A DNA stretch of 12,388 nucleotides from Chloroflexia bacterium (lineage in GTDB: Bacteria > Chloroflexota > Chloroflexia > QHBQ01 > JADMIH01), in NCBI GenBank assembly GCA_025927935.1, contig JAICKM010000122.1:1-12388 (forward strand). The letters run 5' to 3'. Numbering within the stretch: the stretch's first letter is position 1; every line of letters begins with the position of its first letter. Under the pieces are notes generated by a model. The model worked only from the letters and a program-made list of their open reading frames with translations. It ran no database searches and had not been told where the DNA came from. Below, in pieces: positions 3 to 9,466 of the stretch. The translations under genes were made by a program, and so were the position numbers.

Positions 3-527
3 CTCGCTGGGCTGGGGCTCTTGTTTGCTTTGGCCTATATATACTATTATTCCCGCGCGCCAATACACCGTTTTATTTCCCGCCTGCTGGGCCGCGCCGC
101 CCCGCCCGACGACATGACCCAGGAAACCTTTATTCGCGCTTATCAAAGTCTCGACCGGTTGGGTCAGGACCCGAATCTAAGCGCATGGTTATACCGGATC
201 GCATCAAACGCCTGCCTGGACGCCATGCGGCGCCGCAAGCGGTTTACCTGGCTGCCGATGTTCGACAGATCCGATCGGGACGAAGAGTTTACCACGGACG
301 ATTTTACCCCGCAGATTGTCGAAGCCGACGCGGTGCGTCGCGTCCTGGCCGACATGCCCGCCGCGCTGAGCATGACATTGGTGTTACGCTCGCTGGAAGG
401 CTTCTCCTGCGAGGAAATCGCCGAGATTATGAACGTCCCTAAAGGCACGGTCTTTAGTCGGTTGGCGCGGGCGCGCGAGCAGTTCGCGCGGCTTTATGCC
501 CGGGCCGGCCGAGAGGAAAAGGGATGA
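3..527 (+). CDS. ECF-type RNA polymerase sigma-70 factor, 5' end cut by window edge
   Basis: This encodes an alternative sigma factor that directs RNA polymerase to a specific promoter set. Region 2 is visible in the first ~80 residues: the helix ending HRFISRLLG, then DDMTQETFIRAY (the conserved D-x-x-Q-E-x-F segment) and W-L-Y-R-I-A-x-N-x-C-x-D-x-x-R-R. Region 4 follows near the C-terminus, with LRSLEGFSCEEIAEIMNVPKGTVFSRLARAR forming the helix-turn-helix that reads the -35 element; it is split here only for naming. No sigma region 1 or 3 is present, as expected for ECF factors. The frame stays open to the left edge. A TTG at 21 could start it, but it has no convincing ribosome binding site and would clip the first helix of region 2, so I treat the gene as partial. 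The stop overlaps the next start as ATGA at 524-527, indicating translational coupling to its anti-sigma partner. The ECF subgroup was not determined. The first ~200 bases are more AT-rich than the rest. Confidence 0.93.
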   Translation, partial: LAGLGLLFALAYIYYYSRAPIHRFISRLLGRAAPPDDMTQETFIRAYQSLDRLGQDPNLSAWLYRIASNACLDAMRRRKRFTWLPMFDRSDRDEEFTTDDFTPQIVEADAVRRVLADMPAALSMTLVLRSLEGFSCEEIAEIMNVPKGTVFSRLARAREQFARLYARAGREEKG

Positions 528-3500
528 CCTGTGCGCGTTATCGCGCCCTCATTTCGCGTTACCTCGACGATGAACTCACGCCGCGCCAGCGCGCCGAATT
601 ACTCGATCACGTAAAGCACTGCGCGAGCTGCGCCGCCGACCTGGCCCGCTACCGCCAGGCGGAAGTCTTATTACGCAAGATTCCTGAGGGCGAACCAGCG
701 CCGAAGCTGAAACCGGCGGTGCTACGCGAAGCCCGGCGGCGCCGCCGGCGTGAGCGACACAGCCTGATCTGGCTGCTCTCCGCCGGGGGCCGGGCGAACC
801 CGCGCATGGTGGCCTGTGTGCTGGCGATTGGCCTGCTGCTGCCCGTCCTGGCTGGGGTGTTGCTGCCCGTGGCCTCCGGGCAGGCCATCGGCGCTCGCTT
901 TGGCTTCTCCGCGCCCGCCACGCCCACCTCGGCCTACCTCGACGTACCCGAAAGTCCGACTCCGGCGCCGCCCGGTCCGCTGTCGCCGCCGCATCTGGTC
1001 GCCACCAAGCCCTACGACGGCGCGGAAGGGGTCGATCCGCGCACGAGCCTCGTCGTCAGCTTCGATCAGGCCATGGATCGCCGCTCGGTCGAGCGTGCGT
1101 TCCGCCTCTCGCCGCCCGTGCCCGGCGAGTTCACCTGGGAAGCCGATAACCAGGTGCGGTTCCAGCCCAAGGCGCCCGGCCTGCTCCAGGGGGTCAGCTA
1201 TAGCGTGGCCCTGACCGACGGCGCGCGCAGCTTGGCCGGCGCTGCGTTATCGCCCAGTACCGTATGGGCGTTCCACACCCAGCCGGGGCCGGCCCTCGAC
1301 GCGGTGGTTCCGGCGCCCGGCGCCATTGGGATTACACCCACCGCGACCCTGGTGCTGACCTTTACGCAGCCCATGGATACCGGCTCGGTCGCCTTTACCC
1401 TCGCCCGGCGTCCGGCCCCGGCGGCCGTCCTGGCCGCGAACCGTGCCGAAACCCCGGACCCCGCAGCAGCCTGGACTCCCACCGGCAGCGCAAACTGGTC
1501 CGCCGACCGGCGGGTGCTGCGCTTCACGCCTACCGCCCCGTTGCCGACCGGCGAGCTACAGGTCACGCTGCAACCCGGCGCCCGCACCGGCAACGGCGAC
1601 AATCTGGCCCCCACCGCCTGGAGCTTTACCGTGGCCGGGGACGGCAGCGGTGTGGTGCTGGCTGGCACGCACCTGCTGATGTTGAACGCGACGGTAGCGG
1701 AAATCGGCTACAGCACGAATGTCGACCAGAGCGACGCCGGAGCGCGCGCTGTCCAGTTTGCGCTCTATCCCGCCGGCCGGGCTATGTTGGAGAGCCGCAT
1801 TCCCTGGCTCCTGGGCACCGCCGGCAGCGGCCCCTGGCCGCCCCTGCAAACCGGCGCTAGTCCCCCGGTGAAAACCTGGACCGCGCCCTTGCCGCGCTCG
1901 CTCGAACAACAGGCCGGGCGCAGCCTGACCACGACGATCCCCCTCCACGAGCCGGGACTCTATCTGTTGACGGCGGATAGCGGCGACGGACCCGCCGATC
2001 AGCGGCTGGTCGCGCTGAGTGATGAGGCGCTACTGCTGTTCAAGAGCAACGGCCTCTGGCGCGCGTGGGTCAGTAATCCGCTGACCGGCGCCGGGGTGGA
2101 TGGTGCACAGGTGCGGCTCTACGATCAGGCGGGCGCGGTCCTGGCAAGCGGCGCCACCGATAACCACGGCCTGGCCGCCCTGGTCTTGCCGGCGGATGCC
2201 CATCCGGCCCTGGTCGTCGCCGAACATAACGGCAATCTGACCATTGCCCAGCCCGACCCGGCGGTGATCGCCCAGGCCGCCCTGCAGAGCGCCGATAACC
2301 TGGACGTGACGGTGATCCGCGACCGGGATCGTTACACTCCTGGCGCAACTGTGTTGTTCAGTGCCCTGGTGCGCCCGCCGAAAACCACACCCGCCGCCAC
2401 GGCGATCACAGTACGACTGCTCGACCCGGCCGGGCGGGAGTTGGACGCCCTCAGTCTACAGCCGGACCCGCACGGCGCGCTACATGGCGCCTTCCCGCTG
2501 GCGGCGGGCGTGGCGCCGGGCACCTATTACCTGGCCTTCGCCCTCAGCGACCGGGTGTTCCATGAGCCGGTGCCGGTGGATCCGCTAACCCCCACCAGCG
2601 ACCCGGCAGCCATGCAACTCAACCTGCAAGTCGCTGAGCCCGCCCTCTATGCCGGTGAATTACTAACCGCCACGCTGCAAACCAGTTATGGCCCGGCGCG
2701 GATGGCACCGGAGGTGCCGGTGAGCCTCAGCCTGGTGCCCCTGGGCGACAGCACCCCTACGCTGGTGCTGACGGCCACCACCGGCACGGACGGACAAGCG
2801 CTGGTCCCGTTGCGCCTCCCCGTGCCCGATTCCGGTCAAGGCGCCACGCCCTCCGGCTACCGGCTCGAAGCGAACGCGACCGACTCGCGCGGCCGGAGCG
2901 CCATCGCCGCGACGCTGCTCGAAGTGCGCGCGGGCCGCCTCAGTATGGAGCAAACCGTGCCCACGCGGGCCTTCGCTCCCGACTCCAGTACCGTGATCAC
3001 GATTACCCTGCGCGACGAAGCCGGACATCCGCTGGCCGGACGGGTGGTGAACAGCGGCCTGGCCGACGCCGGGCTGGCGGCGACCAGCGATCCGGCACAA
3101 ACGTCCTCGCTGCTGAACACTGTCACCGCGGTGACGGATGGGCGGGGCGTTGCCACCGCCACAGTGTCGCTGCCGCTGCAAGGCGCCTTCAGCTTGCGCT
3201 CGGTCGTCACCGACAGCGCGGGGATTCCCGTGTCGGCGGCGACGCGCGTGTGGGTCTATGAGCAAGCCAGCCATGTCTCGGCGGTGGTGCCCTGGCTGCC
3301 CGCGACGGAGGCGCTGCTGACCCCCGACCAGGAGAGCTACCGGCCGGGCGAGATCGCGCACCTGTTAATCCAGGCGCCGGGCGCCGGGGGCGGGTTACTC
3401 GTCACGCGGCTGCGCGACCAGATTGTGGATATGCAGAGCGTGACCTTTACCACCGGCGGGGGGGTGGTCGCGGTGACCGTGCCCGCCGATATGCGGACCG

Positions 3501-5884
3501 GCGACCCGCTCGTGGTGGAGTTCCTGCGCTTCGCGACGAACGACTCCGGGCCATACATCGTGAGCCGGCGGCTGCCCTTGCCGGTGCAGCCCAACCAGGA
3601 GCCACGGCTGGACCTGACCGTGCCCACCCCGCCGCCCTCCGGCGCCTATGCGCCCAGCAGTACGCTGCCGGTGCAGCTAACGCTCACGGATGAGGGCATC
3701 AACCCCGCTGCCGCCGAAGTGCTGCTACGCCTGAGCGCCCTGGGCGATGAGGCCGCACCGCTTGCGGCCAGCCCACCCACCGCGAACTGGCCCGCCGGGG
3801 ACAGTGCGGCCCCGGTTATCCAGGCATCCACGGAGGCGCCGGTGTTCTGGAATGCCGGGCTGAGCCTGGACAGCAGCGGCCAGTTGAGCACGACGGTCCG
3901 GCTGCCCGCAGAGGCGGGTATCTGGAATCTCGACGCCTGGGCGCTCACTCCCAATGGCGTGAATCACAGCCAGGTGCTGGTGCGCACGCTGCCACCGCTC
4001 GCGGTGCAATGGGCCATGCCCGAATCGCTGGTCCAGGGCGACAGCACCACCGCCGTCGCTACCATCACCAATAACCAGGAGACCGCCGCCAACGTCAGCC
4101 TGCATTTACAAATGGGGGGCGATCATGCGCTGGATCTGACGAGTCCCCAGGAGCAAAATTTCCGCTTGGCCCCGGGCGAGACCCGGACCGCGACGTGGAC
4201 CATGCGTGCGCCCGCCCCCGGCACCGTACAGGTCAGCCTCGACGCCGCCTGGGGCGCGCCGGGGGCGCCGGGCCTCACCGTCCACCGCAACCAGGCGATA
4301 ATCGTGGCGCCCTACGGCATCGTGGACGAGCAAACCCATGCCGGCACGGTCGGCGATAGCGAATCGATTAACATGACCTTGCCGGGGGATGTGGATCCCG
4401 CGACTGCCCGCCTCGATATCTACTGCGCGACGACGGTGCCGGGCGCCCTGGCCGGCGCTGTGGCCGAGTTGACACCCAGCAGCGGCGCGGGGTCGCGCGG
4501 GCGGATCGATGAGGTCGCCGCCCGTCTCGCCGCGGGGGCCACGCTACGCGCCCTCTACCGTAGCCAGGGCCTCGACCCGGACGATCTACCCGCCGATCTC
4601 GCCGCCAACAGCCAGCTCGATTTGCAGTATCTCTACAGCGCGCAGGGCGCCGACGGCGGCTGGGGACCCTGGCCGGGCACCACCTCCGAGTTGCCGGCGA
4701 CGCTGGCCGTGCTGGAAGCCCTCCAGCAACTCGGCGCGGAACCCGACAGCACGCTCGACGCGCAAACCATCGCCCGCGGTGTGGCCTGGGTGCAACAGGC
4801 GGCCAGCGTGCCCGTCATACCGGGAGCCGCCGTTGATCCGGCACTCGATCCGGCGGTCGCCGATGCCACCGCGCGCGCCATCTACCTGCTGGCGCGCTAC
4901 AATTCGGCTGATCCCACCAGCGTCAACCGGCTGCTGGCCGCCGAGCCGCGGCTGAGCCTGCGCAGCCGCGCCTACCTGGCGCTAACCCTGGCCCAAATCG
5001 GGCGCACCGAGGAGGCGCGCTTGATCGTGGCCCGCTTGGCCGCCGCCGCCGGCAGCAGCGCCGATCCAATCGTCCTAGACGCGTTGCTGATCGCCGATCC
5101 AACGGGGGCGCGCGGTCCCGTTGTGGAGATCGCACGCGCGTTGCTCGGTGCCCGCGTGGGGGCTACCTGGGCGACGCCCGATGAAACCGCGGCGGCGGTG
5201 CGCGCGCTCAGCCATTACGCCGCGGTGGTGCCCGAAACGGCGACTGCGGGCAGCTATCGCATCCTGGTCAACGGCCAGTTGGTCCGTGAAGTCGCCGCGG
5301 GGCCGGCGGCGCCCGATGGTGGGCGCACGCGGCTGACGGTATCCGGCGCACGCCTCCATTCGGGCACCAATACCGTCCGCCTGGAGACGAGTGGGGCACG
5401 CCTCTATTACAGCCTGCGCGTGCAGGCGCCCCTGGCCGCGGACGAACACCCTATCGCCACGCGGCAGAGCGATAGCGCGCCGCTGGGCCTCTTGCGGGTG
5501 TACGAGCCGCTGGCGCCATCCGCCGTGCATGTGGCGTTGACCATGACCGTCGGCATCCCGATGGGGCCGATGCGCCTGGACGATCCGCTCCCCGCCGGGC
5601 TGACCCGCTTGCCGGGACTGCGCTTCGTGCGGCTTGACGGTCCGCCGGACGCGCCCATCGCCGTGGACCTCGCGGGCGCGATTCAGGCGGTGGACCATAT
5701 GCCCGAGGGTCGGGGCCTGCGCGTCTGGTTCGGGCCGCTGCCCGCCGGCAAGTACGCGCTCTCCTATGACGCCGCCACTATCGCCCTGGGCAGTTACACC
5801 GCCCTGCCTGCCCTGCTGCAAACCCAGGATGATCTGGATATCTGGGTGCGCTCCGGCAGCGATAGTCTCTTGCTCGACCACTAG
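524..5884 (+). CDS. Membrane anti-sigma factor fused to an alpha-2-macroglobulin (ZAS zinc finger + TM + two Ig-like + macroglobulin domains)
   Basis: One uninterrupted 1786-residue frame. Residues 1-50 form a ZAS/zf-HC2 anti-sigma domain with C3 and H29-x3-C33-x2-C36. A basic stretch (about 73-94) precedes a single membrane helix (95-117), giving N-in/C-out topology, then a Pro/Ala/Thr stalk (120-155). Two Big_5/SbsA-type Ig-like domains lie at about 156-252 and 256-371. The rest follows bacterial alpha-2-macroglobulin order: macroglobulin domains with the RDRYTPGATV repeat start at 603; a YRPGE strand at 939; a Pro/Ala/Ser-rich bait-like linker at 1074-1104; the A2M domain around W1109; a thioester-type helical domain (about 1320-1570, DGGWGPW at 1377); a YYSL strand at 1628; and a C-terminal domain with LPAGL at 1689. 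The thioester motif GCxEQ reads GRIDE at 1326-1330, so no thioester can form. The family traps proteases. The ATGA overlap with the sigma gene supports a role as its regulator. Sensing is inference. Confidence 0.88.
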   Translation: MTCARYRALISRYLDDELTPRQRAELLDHVKHCASCAADLARYRQAEVLLRKIPEGEPAPKLKPAVLREARRRRRRERHSLIWLLSAGGRANPRMVACVLAIGLLLPVLAGVLLPVASGQAIGARFGFSAPATPTSAYLDVPESPTPAPPGPLSPPHLVATKPYDGAEGVDPRTSLVVSFDQAMDRRSVERAFRLSPPVPGEFTWEADNQVRFQPKAPGLLQGVSYSVALTDGARSLAGAALSPSTVWAFHTQPGPALDAVVPAPGAIGITPTATLVLTFTQPMDTGSVAFTLARRPAPAAVLAANRAETPDPAAAWTPTGSANWSADRRVLRFTPTAPLPTGELQVTLQPGARTGNGDNLAPTAWSFTVAGDGSGVVLAGTHLLMLNATVAEIGYSTNVDQSDAGARAVQFALYPAGRAMLESRIPWLLGTAGSGPWPPLQTGASPPVKTWTAPLPRSLEQQAGRSLTTTIPLHEPGLYLLTADSGDGPADQRLVALSDEALLLFKSNGLWRAWVSNPLTGAGVDGAQVRLYDQAGAVLASGATDNHGLAALVLPADAHPALVVAEHNGNLTIAQPDPAVIAQAALQSADNLDVTVIRDRDRYTPGATVLFSALVRPPKTTPAATAITVRLLDPAGRELDALSLQPDPHGALHGAFPLAAGVAPGTYYLAFALSDRVFHEPVPVDPLTPTSDPAAMQLNLQVAEPALYAGELLTATLQTSYGPARMAPEVPVSLSLVPLGDSTPTLVLTATTGTDGQALVPLRLPVPDSGQGATPSGYRLEANATDSRGRSAIAATLLEVRAGRLSMEQTVPTRAFAPDSSTVITITLRDEAGHPLAGRVVNSGLADAGLAATSDPAQTSSLLNTVTAVTDGRGVATATVSLPLQGAFSLRSVVTDSAGIPVSAATRVWVYEQASHVSAVVPWLPATEALLTPDQESYRPGEIAHLLIQAPGAGGGLLVTRLRDQIVDMQSVTFTTGGGVVAVTVPADMRTGDPLVVEFLRFATNDSGPYIVSRRLPLPVQPNQEPRLDLTVPTPPPSGAYAPSSTLPVQLTLTDEGINPAAAEVLLRLSALGDEAAPLAASPPTANWPAGDSAAPVIQASTEAPVFWNAGLSLDSSGQLSTTVRLPAEAGIWNLDAWALTPNGVNHSQVLVRTLPPLAVQWAMPESLVQGDSTTAVATITNNQETAANVSLHLQMGGDHALDLTSPQEQNFRLAPGETRTATWTMRAPAPGTVQVSLDAAWGAPGAPGLTVHRNQAIIVAPYGIVDEQTHAGTVGDSESINMTLPGDVDPATARLDIYCATTVPGALAGAVAELTPSSGAGSRGRIDEVAARLAAGATLRALYRSQGLDPDDLPADLAANSQLDLQYLYSAQGADGGWGPWPGTTSELPATLAVLEALQQLGAEPDSTLDAQTIARGVAWVQQAASVPVIPGAAVDPALDPAVADATARAIYLLARYNSADPTSVNRLLAAEPRLSLRSRAYLALTLAQIGRTEEARLIVARLAAAAGSSADPIVLDALLIADPTGARGPVVEIARALLGARVGATWATPDETAAAVRALSHYAAVVPETATAGSYRILVNGQLVREVAAGPAAPDGGRTRLTVSGARLHSGTNTVRLETSGARLYYSLRVQAPLAADEHPIATRQSDSAPLGLLRVYEPLAPSAVHVALTMTVGIPMGPMRLDDPLPAGLTRLPGLRFVRLDGPPDAPIAVDLAGAIQAVDHMPEGRGLRVWFGPLPAGKYALSYDAATIALGSYTALPALLQTQDDLDIWVRSGSDSLLLDH

Positions 5885-5906
5885 CGCAGCGCCGCCGTCC
5901 TGCCAG

Positions 5907-5935
5907 GGCCGGGTCGGTTTGAAACCGGCCCCTAC
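5907..5935. repeat. REP-like palindromic repeat, copy 1
   Basis: Positions 5911-5931 form a near-perfect inverted repeat centred on 5921, with one G-T wobble, followed by CCCCTAC. By hand alignment 24 of 29 positions match copy 2 at 9417-9445, in the same orientation. An alternative 7-bp stem pairs 5906-5912 with 5925-5931. The repeat sits just after the macroglobulin stop codon and could act as a weak terminator or mRNA 3' stabiliser. No U-tract follows it, so intrinsic termination is doubtful. Confidence 0.7.
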
Positions 5936-5994
5936 CATTCAACTGCACGATGGCCGCCTGGTGGGCCCCACCCGCAGACTCCACGGCCCGACTC

Positions 5995-6022
5995 CCGACA
6001 AATCCGGGGCAGGTGGTATAAT
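5995..6022 (+). promoter_or_regulatory. Putative promoter of murA, extended -10 type
   Basis: TATAAT at 6017-6022 is a perfect consensus -10 and is preceded by TGG (6014-6016), which makes an extended -10. A weak -35, CCGACA at 5995-6000, matches TTGACA at four positions with a 16-base spacer. Transcription would start near 6029, giving a leader of roughly 180 nt. The same TGGTATAAT string recurs at 7554-7562. Confidence 0.65.
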
Positions 6023-6170
6023 GAGCGCGAGCTATGGCGGCCGGCCCGGTCGATGGGCGCCCGCTATGGAACCCGCGCGGCCCACGCCCGCCCGGACCGG
6101 CCAGACCCCGGCAACCGGTGCGATTATCTGAGCACGCGCCGCGCGGGGCGGTTAATTTGCATATCCACAC

Positions 6171-6190
6171 GGGGCGCGCCCCGGGCGCGC
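6171..6190 (+). promoter_or_regulatory. GC-rich nested hairpin in the murA leader
   Basis: GGGGCGCGCCCC at 6171-6182 is a perfect palindrome. It overlaps a second inverted repeat, GCGCGCC (6174-6180) with GGCGCGC (6184-6190), so the two folds exclude each other. The structure ends 12 bases before the Shine-Dalgarno of murA, where it could modulate translation initiation or transcript stability. No terminator U-tract follows it. Regulation is inference, and in GC-rich DNA such palindromes can be incidental. Confidence 0.4.
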
Positions 6191-6212
6191 TTCCGGCTGT
6201 CAGGGAGGAATC

Positions 6213-7490
6213 ATGGAGCAATTTATCGTCGAAGGCGGGCATCCGCTCCACGGGGTGCTGCGCCCGGCGGGCAACAAGAACGCGGCGCTGCCGATGCTGG
6301 CGGCGGCCCTGTTGACCGATGAGCCGGTCGTTTTGCAGAATGTGCCGGAGATCGACGATGTCCGGGTGATGCTGCGGCTGCTGGAACGCCTGGGCGTCGA
6401 GGTGGAGCAAAGCGACCACGCCGTGCGGCTCTGGGCGCGGGATCCGCAAGCGTCGGCTCTGGACCCCGATCTGTGCCGGCGGATTCGGACCTCGCTGCTG
6501 CTGGCCGGGCCGTTGCTGGCCCGTTGCGGCACGGCGGCCCTGGGCTTGCCCGGCGGCGACACCATCGGACGGCGGCGCAACGATACCCACCTGCTGGCCT
6601 TGCGCGCGCTGGGCGCCGAAGTCGAAGTCTCGGACAGCCAGTACAGCTTCCGCGCCGAGCGCCTGCGCGGGGCCGAGATCTTCCTCGATGAGGCCAGCGT
6701 GACCGGCACCGAGCAGGCCATGCTGGCCGCCTGCACGGCGGAAGGCACGACCATTATCCGCAACGCCGCATCGGAGCCGCATGTGCAGGACCTGGGCCAT
6801 TTCCTCAACATCCTGGGCGCGTGCATCCACGGCATCGGCAGCAACACGCTGGAGATTCGCGGCGTGCCTCGCCTCCACGGCGGCACCTACCGCATTATGT
6901 CGGATCACATGGAGGTCGGGTCGTTTATCGGCCTGGCCGCCATCACCGGCAGCGAAGTGCTGATCAAGGATGCCGTCCCGGAGCACCTGCACATGACCAG
7001 CCTCGTCTTCCAGCGGTTGGGGGTGCGCACGGAAGTGCGCGGGCCGGATATTTTTGTGCCCGGCGGCCAGGAACTGCGCGTGGAGAGCGATACCCACGGC
7101 GCGATCCTGAAGATCGACGACGGCCCCTGGCCCGCGTTCCCCAGCGACCTGATGAGTATCGCCCTGGTCGTGGCGACGCAGGCCGAGGGCACGGTGCTGA
7201 TCTTCGAGAAGATGTTCGAGAGCCGCCTCTTCTTCGTGGATAAGTTGATCGGCATGGGCGCCCGCATCGTGCTCTGCGACCCGCACCGGGCGGTCATCAT
7301 CGGCCGCTCGCCTCTGCACGGCGAGGAGTTAGCCAGCCCCGACATCCGCGCCGGGATGGCCCTGCTCACGGCGTCGCTTTGTGCCCGCGGCACCAGCGTC
7401 ATCCAGAACGTCGGCCAGATCGACCGCGGCTATGAGCGGATCGAGGAACGCCTGGCGGCCGTCGGCGCGCGCATTCGCCGCGTCGGCTAG
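6213..7490 (+). CDS. murA: UDP-N-acetylglucosamine 1-carboxyvinyltransferase (MurA), Cys-to-Asp active-site type
   Basis: This cytoplasmic enzyme transfers enolpyruvate from phosphoenolpyruvate to UDP-GlcNAc, the first committed step of peptidoglycan synthesis. Its 425 residues match the family length (about 420). GNKNAALP at the N-terminus carries K22, the conserved substrate-binding Lys. [13 protein letters not shown] precedes the active-site loop GGDTIGRRR, in which D116 stands where most MurAs have the PEP- and fosfomycin-reactive Cys (C115 in E. coli); R121 aligns with R120. PSDLMS places the catalytic Asp at D312, and DIRAGMAL gives R379, equivalent to the late active-site Arg. One unusual spot is SDHMEVGSF, where most members have PDRIETGTF. 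The start is chosen on the ATG with GGGAGG four bases upstream. The gene appears to be a single transcription unit with its own promoter and a terminator-like hairpin behind it. AroA (EPSP synthase) is the related alternative, but the GNKNA and GG-x-TIG motifs favour MurA. Confidence 0.94.
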
Positions 7491-7562: not shown

Positions 7563-7596
7563 TAAAGGGCTTTTTGCCTGTTTTATATTGCTTGGC

Positions 7597-7623
7597 GGAC
7601 CGCTTGCCGCCTGTAAGCGGTCC
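7597..7623 (+). promoter_or_regulatory. Leader hairpin just upstream of the ribosome binding site
   Basis: GGACCGCTT (7597-7605) pairs perfectly with AAGCGGTCC (7615-7623) around a 9-base loop. It lies between the predicted transcription start and the Shine-Dalgarno (GGAG at 7626 or AGGG at 7631). It could protect the 5' end or gate translation of the gene at 7640. It has no U-tract and is therefore not a convincing attenuator by itself. Confidence 0.5.
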
Positions 7624-7639
7624 CTGGAGAAGGGAAACG

Positions 7640-8227
7640 ATGTTCAGCGAGAATCCTGAGACGAATGTGAACGCCGGGAGTGATCCGGCGCCGGAACTGG
7701 AGGCGGTGCCGTTCCGGCGTCCCCCGAATCGCCGCCGCTTCACGATGCGCTATACCATCATCGACGAGCGCGGCAGCCTCAGCTTTGTCGGCCCGTGCCA
7801 GGGCCTGAAAGCACTCGTGGCCGCCTGTGCCCAGGATGTTCACCGCACGGCGGAAGACCTGCTGACGGCGGCGGGAGAATATGACAGCGACCTGCGCGAC
7901 AGCGTGCTGAACGGCCTGCACGTCTTCGACGAACACAACCTGCCCGGCAACTACGCGGCGATCCACGCCGCGCTCCAGGCGCCGGGCGACGACACGGCCA
8001 CCAGCCCCGTCTTTCGCGTGGTGGACGACGTGACCCGCCAAGCCAGCTTGCACCCGGTCAAAGCCGGGTTGGTGCTGTTCAACCTGAAGCAAAAGCGGAT
8101 TGTGCAGGTCCAGAACACCTACGCCGACATTCAGCGCGAGGATCGGGGCCGGGTGCGCAAGAACGGCCGGGTGACGGGCCGTTACTACGACTACCGGCTG
8201 CCGCTTGAGTGGCAGGTGATTCCCTAA
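7640..8227 (+). CDS. Hypothetical protein, 195 aa, function not recognised
   Basis: I do not recognise a family with a known function. The protein is soluble in appearance, with no signal peptide or membrane segment. Residues 1-35 are polar and Pro-rich, probably disordered. A folded core seems to begin at MRYTIIDERG (36-45). A hydrophobic strand GLVLFNLKQKRIVQVQ lies at 143-158. The basic tail GRVRKNGRVTGRYYDYRLPLEW (170-191) looks like a conserved signature and could bind nucleic acid or another anionic ligand, which is speculation. The ATG at 7640 is preferred: it follows a purine-rich Shine-Dalgarno, lies just behind the leader hairpin, and a promoter sits about 70 bases upstream. An upstream TTG at 7574 would place the promoter's start site almost on the codon. 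M36 at 7745 is an alternative start. The stop is 3 bases before the CoA-transferase ATG, so the two are probably cotranscribed. Confidence 0.8.
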   Translation: MFSENPETNVNAGSDPAPELEAVPFRRPPNRRRFTMRYTIIDERGSLSFVGPCQGLKALVAACAQDVHRTAEDLLTAAGEYDSDLRDSVLNGLHVFDEHNLPGNYAAIHAALQAPGDDTATSPVFRVVDDVTRQASLHPVKAGLVLFNLKQKRIVQVQNTYADIQREDRGRVRKNGRVTGRYYDYRLPLEWQVIP

Positions 8228-9391: not shown

Positions 9392-9416
9392 GCCAGGCGT
9401 ACCGCTACCGGTGCCC

Positions 9417-9445
9417 GGTCGGGCCGGTTGCAAACCCGCCCCTAC
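9417..9445. repeat. REP-like palindromic repeat, copy 2, at a convergent gene junction
   Basis: Bases 9421-9429 pair with 9433-9441 around the loop GCA with a single internal mismatch (9425/9437), followed by CCCCTAC. It aligns to copy 1 at 5907-5935 with 24 of 29 identities. It lies in the 75-base gap between the CoA-transferase stop and the stop of the convergent TyrA-like gene, where it could also act as a bidirectional transcription barrier. Confidence 0.7.
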
Positions 9446-9466
9446 AGGCCATATGATCCTGATCGG

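Follow-up and report, generated by a model that had tools for sequence, protein, structure and literature searches.

What might an anti-sigma factor sense when its ectodomain is a macroglobulin? The question is raised by a 12,388-nt stretch of DNA from a Chloroflexia bacterium (assembly GCA_025927935.1, contig JAICKM010000122.1), here called the window, in which an extracytoplasmic function (ECF) sigma factor gene is followed by a 1786-codon frame that joins a zinc-binding anti-sigma (ZAS) domain to a bacterial α2-macroglobulin (A2M) fold. A sequence-only reading of the window had proposed that the macroglobulin is a protease sensor that frees the sigma factor once its bait segment is cut. We assign a probability of roughly 0.7 to the reading that the fusion is a single-pass membrane anti-sigma factor, the ZAS domain of which holds the ECF sigma factor inside the cell while its ectodomain outside, a former trap, is probably the sensor. 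The direct computational basis consists of the architecture, topology, and conservation of the protein, the grouping of the fusions in a single clade, linkage to sigma factor and murA genes in both readable loci, and the loss of the thioester.

Architecture and topology of the fusion protein

Above its cut-offs, Pfam places zf-HC2 (residues 3–37, E = 6.3e-9), two stretches of Big_5 (6e-22), bMG3, MG2 (1e-12), A2M_BRD, and A2M (4e-9) on the fusion protein; bMG10 scored below the cut-off only, as did the anti-sigma matches in an NCBIfam scan of the window proteins. The zinc ligands C3, H29, C33, and C36 recur with the same spacing in 60 of 60 fetched relatives, which were chosen by a pattern demanding the four ligands, if not their exact spacing, so that their presence is by construction. 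In the structure model, helices comprising residues 3–14, 20–32, 34–51, and 62–86 precede the membrane helix, and the N-terminal Cys and the Hx3Cx2C motif are located in a three-helix bundle. A hydropathy scan found one membrane helix at about residues 93–116 and detected none other in the window protein. The N terminus is predicted to lie inside, with nine lysine or arginine residues in the 25 positions before the helix and one in the 25 after it. The ZAS domain, the single membrane helix, and the continuous frame that had been read from the sequence are thus confirmed by Pfam, the model, and hydropathy. Confirmed as well is the ATGA in which the sigma stop codon (525–527) and the fusion start overlap by 4 nt; the sigma gene itself is truncated at the first base of the window, leaving 174 residues visible. 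Within the first 250 residues, the segment of highest hydrophobicity begins at positions 94–143 in all 61 fusions, and no second one exceeds the threshold, a mean hydropathy of 1.9, below which some accepted helices fall. Lysine and arginine residues are more numerous before the helix than after it in 57 of the 61.

Class I anti-sigma domains contact sigma2 through their fourth helix, and in RseA, D11 contacts R149 and R178 of RpoE while S7 is a specificity position, as described in the accessible part of PMC7406223. With the E. coli sequences as reference, RseA S7 and D11 align with S11 and D15 of the fusion. S11, D15, and E17, none of which was demanded by the selection pattern, are invariant in 61 of 61 fusions, and the equivalents of RpoE R149 and R178 are retained in the sigma factors of the window and of two further loci, L114 and L115 (see below). 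Because these residues are invariant on one side and kept on the other, the ZAS domain most likely binds the sigma factor from the adjoining gene. The ZAS domain is also the most conserved region, with a mean identity of 79% between the window protein and five relatives that are 45–50% identical overall; between clade I, to which the window protein belongs, and the L114 protein, it averages 47%, against 20–37% for the other regions. A three-sequence profile of the sigma factor found SigW, a sigma-H factor, SigE, and RpoE as the closest PDB structures.

The best Foldseek matches of the window protein are 5a42 and 4u48, with a whole-chain root-mean-square deviation of about 17 Å, at which domain placement is unreliable. 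Structure modelling covered the window protein. In the model and by Foldseek, a series of MG domains and a helical domain resembling the thioester domain (TED) make the macroglobulin fold traceable to the C-terminal end, so that the near-complete macroglobulin noted earlier stands as regards the fold but lacks the thioester. Of the two Ig-like domains noted earlier, the first (residues 154–254) holds up: it is a Big_5 domain folded like the Ig-like domain found in mycobacterial L,D-transpeptidases, and ectodomain conservation is highest here. The second (residues 255–372) does not, since it superposes on MG0 of the E. coli and Salmonella A2Ms, and the stretch after residue 372 superposes on NIE-MG1. 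According to these superpositions, the first Big_5 domain is the sole addition to a bacterial A2M within the ectodomain.

A single family of fusions

A search of 5.8 billion proteins with the window protein returned seven full-length relatives with zf-HC2 at 43–99% identity. Querying with 300 N-terminal residues from a distant member brought 11 more fusions, and querying with residues 1–330 of P0049 another 42, so the search for further zf-HC2 and A2M fusions suggested by the sequence-only reading yielded a conserved family. Of the 128 fetched proteins, 60 contain the full ZAS motif, all of them annotated with PF13490 (zf-HC2), PF13205 (Big_5), and PF01835 (MG2). Organism names accompany 12 of the 60, all of them Chloroflexota, Chloroflexia, Chloroflexi, or Candidatus Chloroheliales, an order of Chloroflexia.

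In a quick tree of ectodomains only, comprising 60 rows (31 of the 61 fusions and 29 A2Ms free of an anti-sigma domain, or ASD-free), the 31 fusions form one clade with an SH-aLRT value of 100. The tree splits them into clade I, with the window protein, joined by P0100; clade II, with the L114 protein and one from Chloroheliales; and clade III, the full-length members of which have 1486–1607 residues. Over all 61 fusions, the clades number 8, 8, and 44 members, P0100 standing alone. The ASD-free rows closest to the fusions (P0026, P0030, and P0031) have an N-terminal hydrophobic stretch and no CxEQ. The simplest history suggested by these sequences is that the thioester was lost first and that an anti-sigma domain was then gained a single time.

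Strict-E searches of 158 genomes of the class gave matches in 21 with query A2 and in 6 with query A5; in 400 genomes drawn from the phylum, query A3 matched in 47 and query A5 in 1. Only G093, the genome carrying L114, matched at the anti-sigma end inside a frame of A2M length. These searches scored two or three candidates per genome, so that absence from a genome does not follow from them. No fusion was confirmed among the pattern matches in viral contigs (one stretch for the window protein, five for query A5) or among 28 stretches of genome contigs found with query A2 (patterns MTCARYRA and ISRYLDDE), and tblastn against plasmids gave three records with weak A2M matches only, at 22.6–23.7% identity.

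Thioester and bait position

The CxEQ motif is absent from the window protein and from all 60 fetched fusions, whereas 28 of 58 ASD-free matches carry it. The column of the thioester cysteine likewise holds no cysteine in any of the 61 fusions, one of which has a gap there, as opposed to a cysteine in 35 of 49 ASD-free relatives. This set of 49 is what remains of the 68 proteins fetched without the ZAS pattern after removal of 9 short or unrelated ones and of 10 family members presumed to be truncated at the N terminus (P0003, P0009, P0010, P0073, P0083, and P0095–P0099; P0009 is shown apart). A covalent thioester trap is rejected for the members seen.

Bait-segment lengths were taken from one MAFFT alignment. 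In the window protein, the bait position spans 41 residues, of which about 30 are predicted to be unstructured. The segment measures 12–42 residues in clade I, where P0006–P0008 have 12–14, 35–91 in clade II, and 49 in P0100, but 20 or fewer in the 44 members of clade III (the value of −1 for the partial P0074 being meaningless), compared with 56–168 in the 49 ASD-free relatives. Because the segment is thus short in 47 of the 61 fusions, it is improbable that all members share a switch based on bait cleavage, and bait chemistry, as invoked in the sequence-only reading, finds no support as a conserved mechanism. The available text of PMC5764988 describes MagD of Pseudomonas aeruginosa, a type II A2M without a thioester, as being cut in the bait and retaining the protease non-covalently; by analogy, a non-covalent bait sensor is possible for members with longer segments, including the window protein. 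In the L114 protein (P0039) and in P0040, the bait position is filled by repeats around SLPQDRGGLG or NPLPQDRGGL.

Linkage to the sigma factor gene and murA

L114 (G093:C346) is the only other fusion locus readable as DNA. It has the same gene order as the window, sigma factor, fusion, and murA, with gaps of 3 and 1 nt, at identities to the window of 27% for the fusion, 50% for the sigma factor, and 64% for MurA. That this order is common to two strongly diverged loci suggests a functional link between the three genes. The expectation that an ECF gene always adjoins the fusion thus holds in two of two readable loci, which is as far as this check reaches. In the window, 328 nt separate the fusion from murA. 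Inspection by eye of the 30 best murA loci from 63 matching Chloroflexia genomes revealed no recognisable fusion upstream of murA, several of these loci having little upstream sequence. At six ASD-free A2M loci (L101, L105, L107, L108, L113, and L116), no directly upstream pair of ECF and anti-sigma genes was recognised by eye, over about 1.3 kb of upstream sequence in five of the six; at L116, an ECF gene and an anti-sigma-like gene are seen on the opposite strand at a distance of about 1.4 kb, with one gene between. In region 6640–7413 of L114, the same-strand upstream neighbour resembles, by eye, a Crp/Fnr-type regulator.

Proposed mechanism and alternatives

In the mechanism that we propose, the cytoplasmic ZAS domain would sequester the ECF sigma factor encoded by the overlapping upstream gene. 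Outside the cell, one Big_5 domain would be followed by the macroglobulin-fold ectodomain, no longer a covalent protease trap and probably the sensor, the state of which a ligand, a partner, or envelope damage may change. Such a change would expose the anti-sigma factor to stepwise proteolysis and thereby free the sigma factor. We propose release by stepwise proteolysis because membrane anti-sigma factors and RsgI proteins signal in this way; for RsgI, the available portion of PMC12203970 describes a sequence of autocleavage, RseP, and an AAA+ protease. Sigma binding, the trigger, proteolytic release, and the regulon are what we infer for the fusion system.

As to the trigger, we tentatively favour envelope or peptidoglycan integrity, with Big_5 and/or the MG domains binding wall material or a wall enzyme and a lost or altered contact leading to release. 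We favour it because of the adjacent murA, the transpeptidase-like Big_5 domain, and the L115 protein, a cousin combining Big_5 with an LGFP repeat. The murA product catalyses the first committed step in the synthesis of peptidoglycan. Big_5, however, is widespread and by itself carries little information, and murA, at its distance from the fusion in the window, may be a mere housekeeping neighbour. Sensing of proteases instead, with a cut at the bait position collapsing the A2M-like ectodomain so that the anti-sigma part is cleaved and the sigma factor released, would suit the fold traceable throughout the window protein, the longer bait segments of the window protein and clade II, and the behaviour of the thioester-less MagD; we nevertheless regard it as unlikely, given the short segments of clade III and P0006–P0008 and the lack of a thioester cysteine in every fusion. 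Somewhat less probable still is a bifunctional protein, the ectodomain keeping a MagD-like protective or structural role while the ZAS domain couples its abundance or loss to the sigma factor. A fold kept across long divergence and the ability of type II A2Ms to function without a thioester speak for such a protein; the prevalence of short bait segments speaks against it, as does the fact that no mag-type partner gene was recognised beside the fusion, where no search with a specific model was made. That the fusion is an artefact, a mis-joined contig or a zinc finger other than an anti-sigma domain, is highly improbable. The window does start within the sigma gene, but 60 further fused proteins, among them the L114 protein, which has an ECF neighbour too, refute a mis-join and exclude the assembly error that the sequence-only reading had named as fatal to it. 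Nor are the two parts always separate proteins, another such case.

Several observations weigh against our reading of a membrane anti-sigma factor with a sensory macroglobulin ectodomain. Only 15 of the 60 fetched fusions have a PF00207 listing, none of them in clade III. In this clade, which holds 44 of the 61 fusions, MG2 is the only A2M domain that Pfam recognises, as judged from a scan of P0049, so that the label macroglobulin there rests on alignment and on the tree. The tree was a quick one without bootstrap, rooted at the midpoint without an outgroup, and it gave long-branch warnings. Lysine and arginine residues are equal in number before and after the helix in four of the 61 fusions (P0055, P0056, P0057, and P0080). 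In ten of the 70 fetched family proteins, the predicted sequence lacks the ZAS domain wholly or in part. The complete order of sigma factor, fusion, and murA is known from two loci only, and the evidence for a peptidoglycan link amounts to a single neighbouring gene and a single fold similarity. Finally, a sigma70-like promoter (TTGACG-17-TATAAT) is seen by eye directly before the L114 sigma gene, and no ECF promoter motif (GGAA[CT], 14–18 nt, CGT or GTC, or a looser form) was found before the sigma genes of L114 and L115 or before murA of the window, the upstream region of the window's own sigma gene lying outside it. Autoregulation is therefore not supported for L114. Separately, four clade III relatives on contigs of 86–141 kb (P0096–P0099) have predicted starts at or just before the membrane helix and no ZAS domain; a split gene, a miscalled start, or loss may account for this.

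Comparison with known systems

With membrane-bound class I (ZAS) anti-sigma factors, the fusion shares Hx3Cx2C, a three-helix bundle with a fourth helix, one transmembrane helix, a gene that overlaps or abuts an ECF gene, and the contact residues. Unlike them, it has a macroglobulin of about 1350–1670 residues as its ectodomain; the word macroglobulin is absent from the main text of the anti-sigma paper PMC7406223. With MagD, the fusion has in common an A2M fold that lacks CxEQ and acts outside the cytoplasm. The accessible part of PMC5764988 describes MagD as a periplasmic protein that carries a signal peptide, is kept at the inner membrane by MagB, and is encoded in a six-gene operon. The fusion instead brings a membrane helix of its own at the N terminus together with an anti-sigma domain in the cytoplasm, and it differs also in the predominantly short bait. 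The type I A2Ms of E. coli and Salmonella (5a42 and 4u48) are the nearest solved structures by Foldseek and are recognisable from MG0-NIE-MG1 on, but the fusion has no thioester, a shorter or missing bait segment, and murA instead of the PBP1c gene as its neighbour.

An anti-sigma domain, a transmembrane helix, and a large sensory ectodomain in one chain are also found in the RsgI proteins of Clostridium thermocellum. Their ectodomains vary, with carbohydrate-binding, PA14, glycoside hydrolase, or peptidase-like sensor modules, and release there is by stepwise proteolysis, according to the same partial text of PMC12203970. RsgI differs from the fusion system in its anti-sigma domain and sigma family; no RsgI-type domain is among the Pfam or NCBIfam matches at E values up to 0.1, the anti-sigma domain found being zf-HC2. 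Closer in layout is L115 (G001, Thermomicrobiales), with an ECF neighbour and with ZAS, transmembrane, and Big_5 segments in the same order, but its protein has 566 residues and no macroglobulin; by its sequence, it represents another, shorter kind of Big_5 anti-sigma factor. At positions 3640–5922 of this locus, the ECF sigma gene precedes the gene for this protein, in which a long linker rich in Pro and Thr joins ZAS-transmembrane-Big_5 to an LGFP repeat.

The known roles of macroglobulins and complement proteins are those of trap, opsonin, and inhibitor. Sensory ectodomains on anti-sigma factors are familiar as well, and the macroglobulin as the probable sensor is what is new here. The view that no system of this architecture has been described agrees with the open full-text literature, in which we found no description of an anti-sigma/macroglobulin protein (in the part of PMC12839542 available, both words occur unrelated to each other); most subscription papers lie outside its reach. 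Chances are about even that a trap of the complement/A2M type was turned into a transmembrane receptor when a membrane-anchored macroglobulin, its thioester already lost, gained a cytoplasmic anti-sigma domain once, and that through this receptor Chloroflexota lineages have since controlled an ECF sigma factor, in one operon with murA. If our reading is correct, a conserved bacterial family covalently wires the macroglobulin fold to a sigma factor and thus uses this fold as a receptor. Sigma activity, as a built-in read-out, would then make it possible to test cleanly what is sensed by a macroglobulin ectodomain, and proteins that sources label "hypothetical" or "Ig-like domain-containing" would gain a likely function.

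Features of the window and of L114

Table 1. Positions of genes and protein segments; rows marked L114 use the numbering of that locus.
Feature	Position	Strand	Basis
ECF sigma factor gene, 5' end cut by window edge	3..527	+	Pfam Sigma70_r2 (6.2e-17), Sigma70_r4_2 (2.5e-12)
Anti-sigma/macroglobulin fusion gene, 1786 aa, ATG start	524..5884	+	open reading frame and Pfam
ZAS zinc-binding anti-sigma domain, residues 3–37	530..634	+	zf-HC2, structure model, conserved residues
Fourth helix, residues 62–86	707..781	+	model, low to moderate confidence
Single membrane helix, residues 93–116	800..871	+	hydropathy scan, model
Membrane-proximal Big_5 domain, residues 154–254	983..1285	+	Pfam, fold match, conservation
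MG0-NIE-MG1 of bacterial A2M, residues 255–579	1286..2260	+	matches to 4zjg, 4zjh, 4u48
MG2 domain, residues 595–672	2306..2539	+	Pfam
A2M bait-region domain fold, residues 932–1066	3317..3721	+	Pfam
Unstructured bait-position segment, residues 1074–1103	3743..3832	+	model confidence (pLDDT) <50; length varies among relatives
A2M (PF00207) domain, residues 1107–1195	3842..4108	+	Pfam
TED-like helical domain without thioester, residues ~1305–1571	4436..5236	+	structure model
murA	6213..7490	+	open reading frame list, NCBIfam, comparison with L114 (same gene order)
217-codon frame between murA and CoA-transferase gene	7574–8227		no Pfam family; true start possibly later
L114 ECF sigma gene	6064–6639	minus	
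L114 fusion, 1638 aa (P0039)	1144–6060		
L114 murA, cut by contig end	from 1142		

Beyond the 217-codon frame lies a gene for a CaiB-type CoA-transferase, and the opposite strand carries a prephenate dehydrogenase-like gene, then one to which Pfam assigns no family, and the end of an SbcC-like gene. Between genes, at about 5907–5937 and 9415–9446, two stretches that resemble each other, GC-rich and partly palindromic, were noticed by eye (GGTTTGAAACCGGCCCCTAC and GGTTGCAAACCCGCCCCTAC); they are not among the repeats listed by an automated search of the window. The pair may represent a dispersed repeat element, one copy of which lies between the fusion and murA. The GC content of the window is 65–71% per kilobase.

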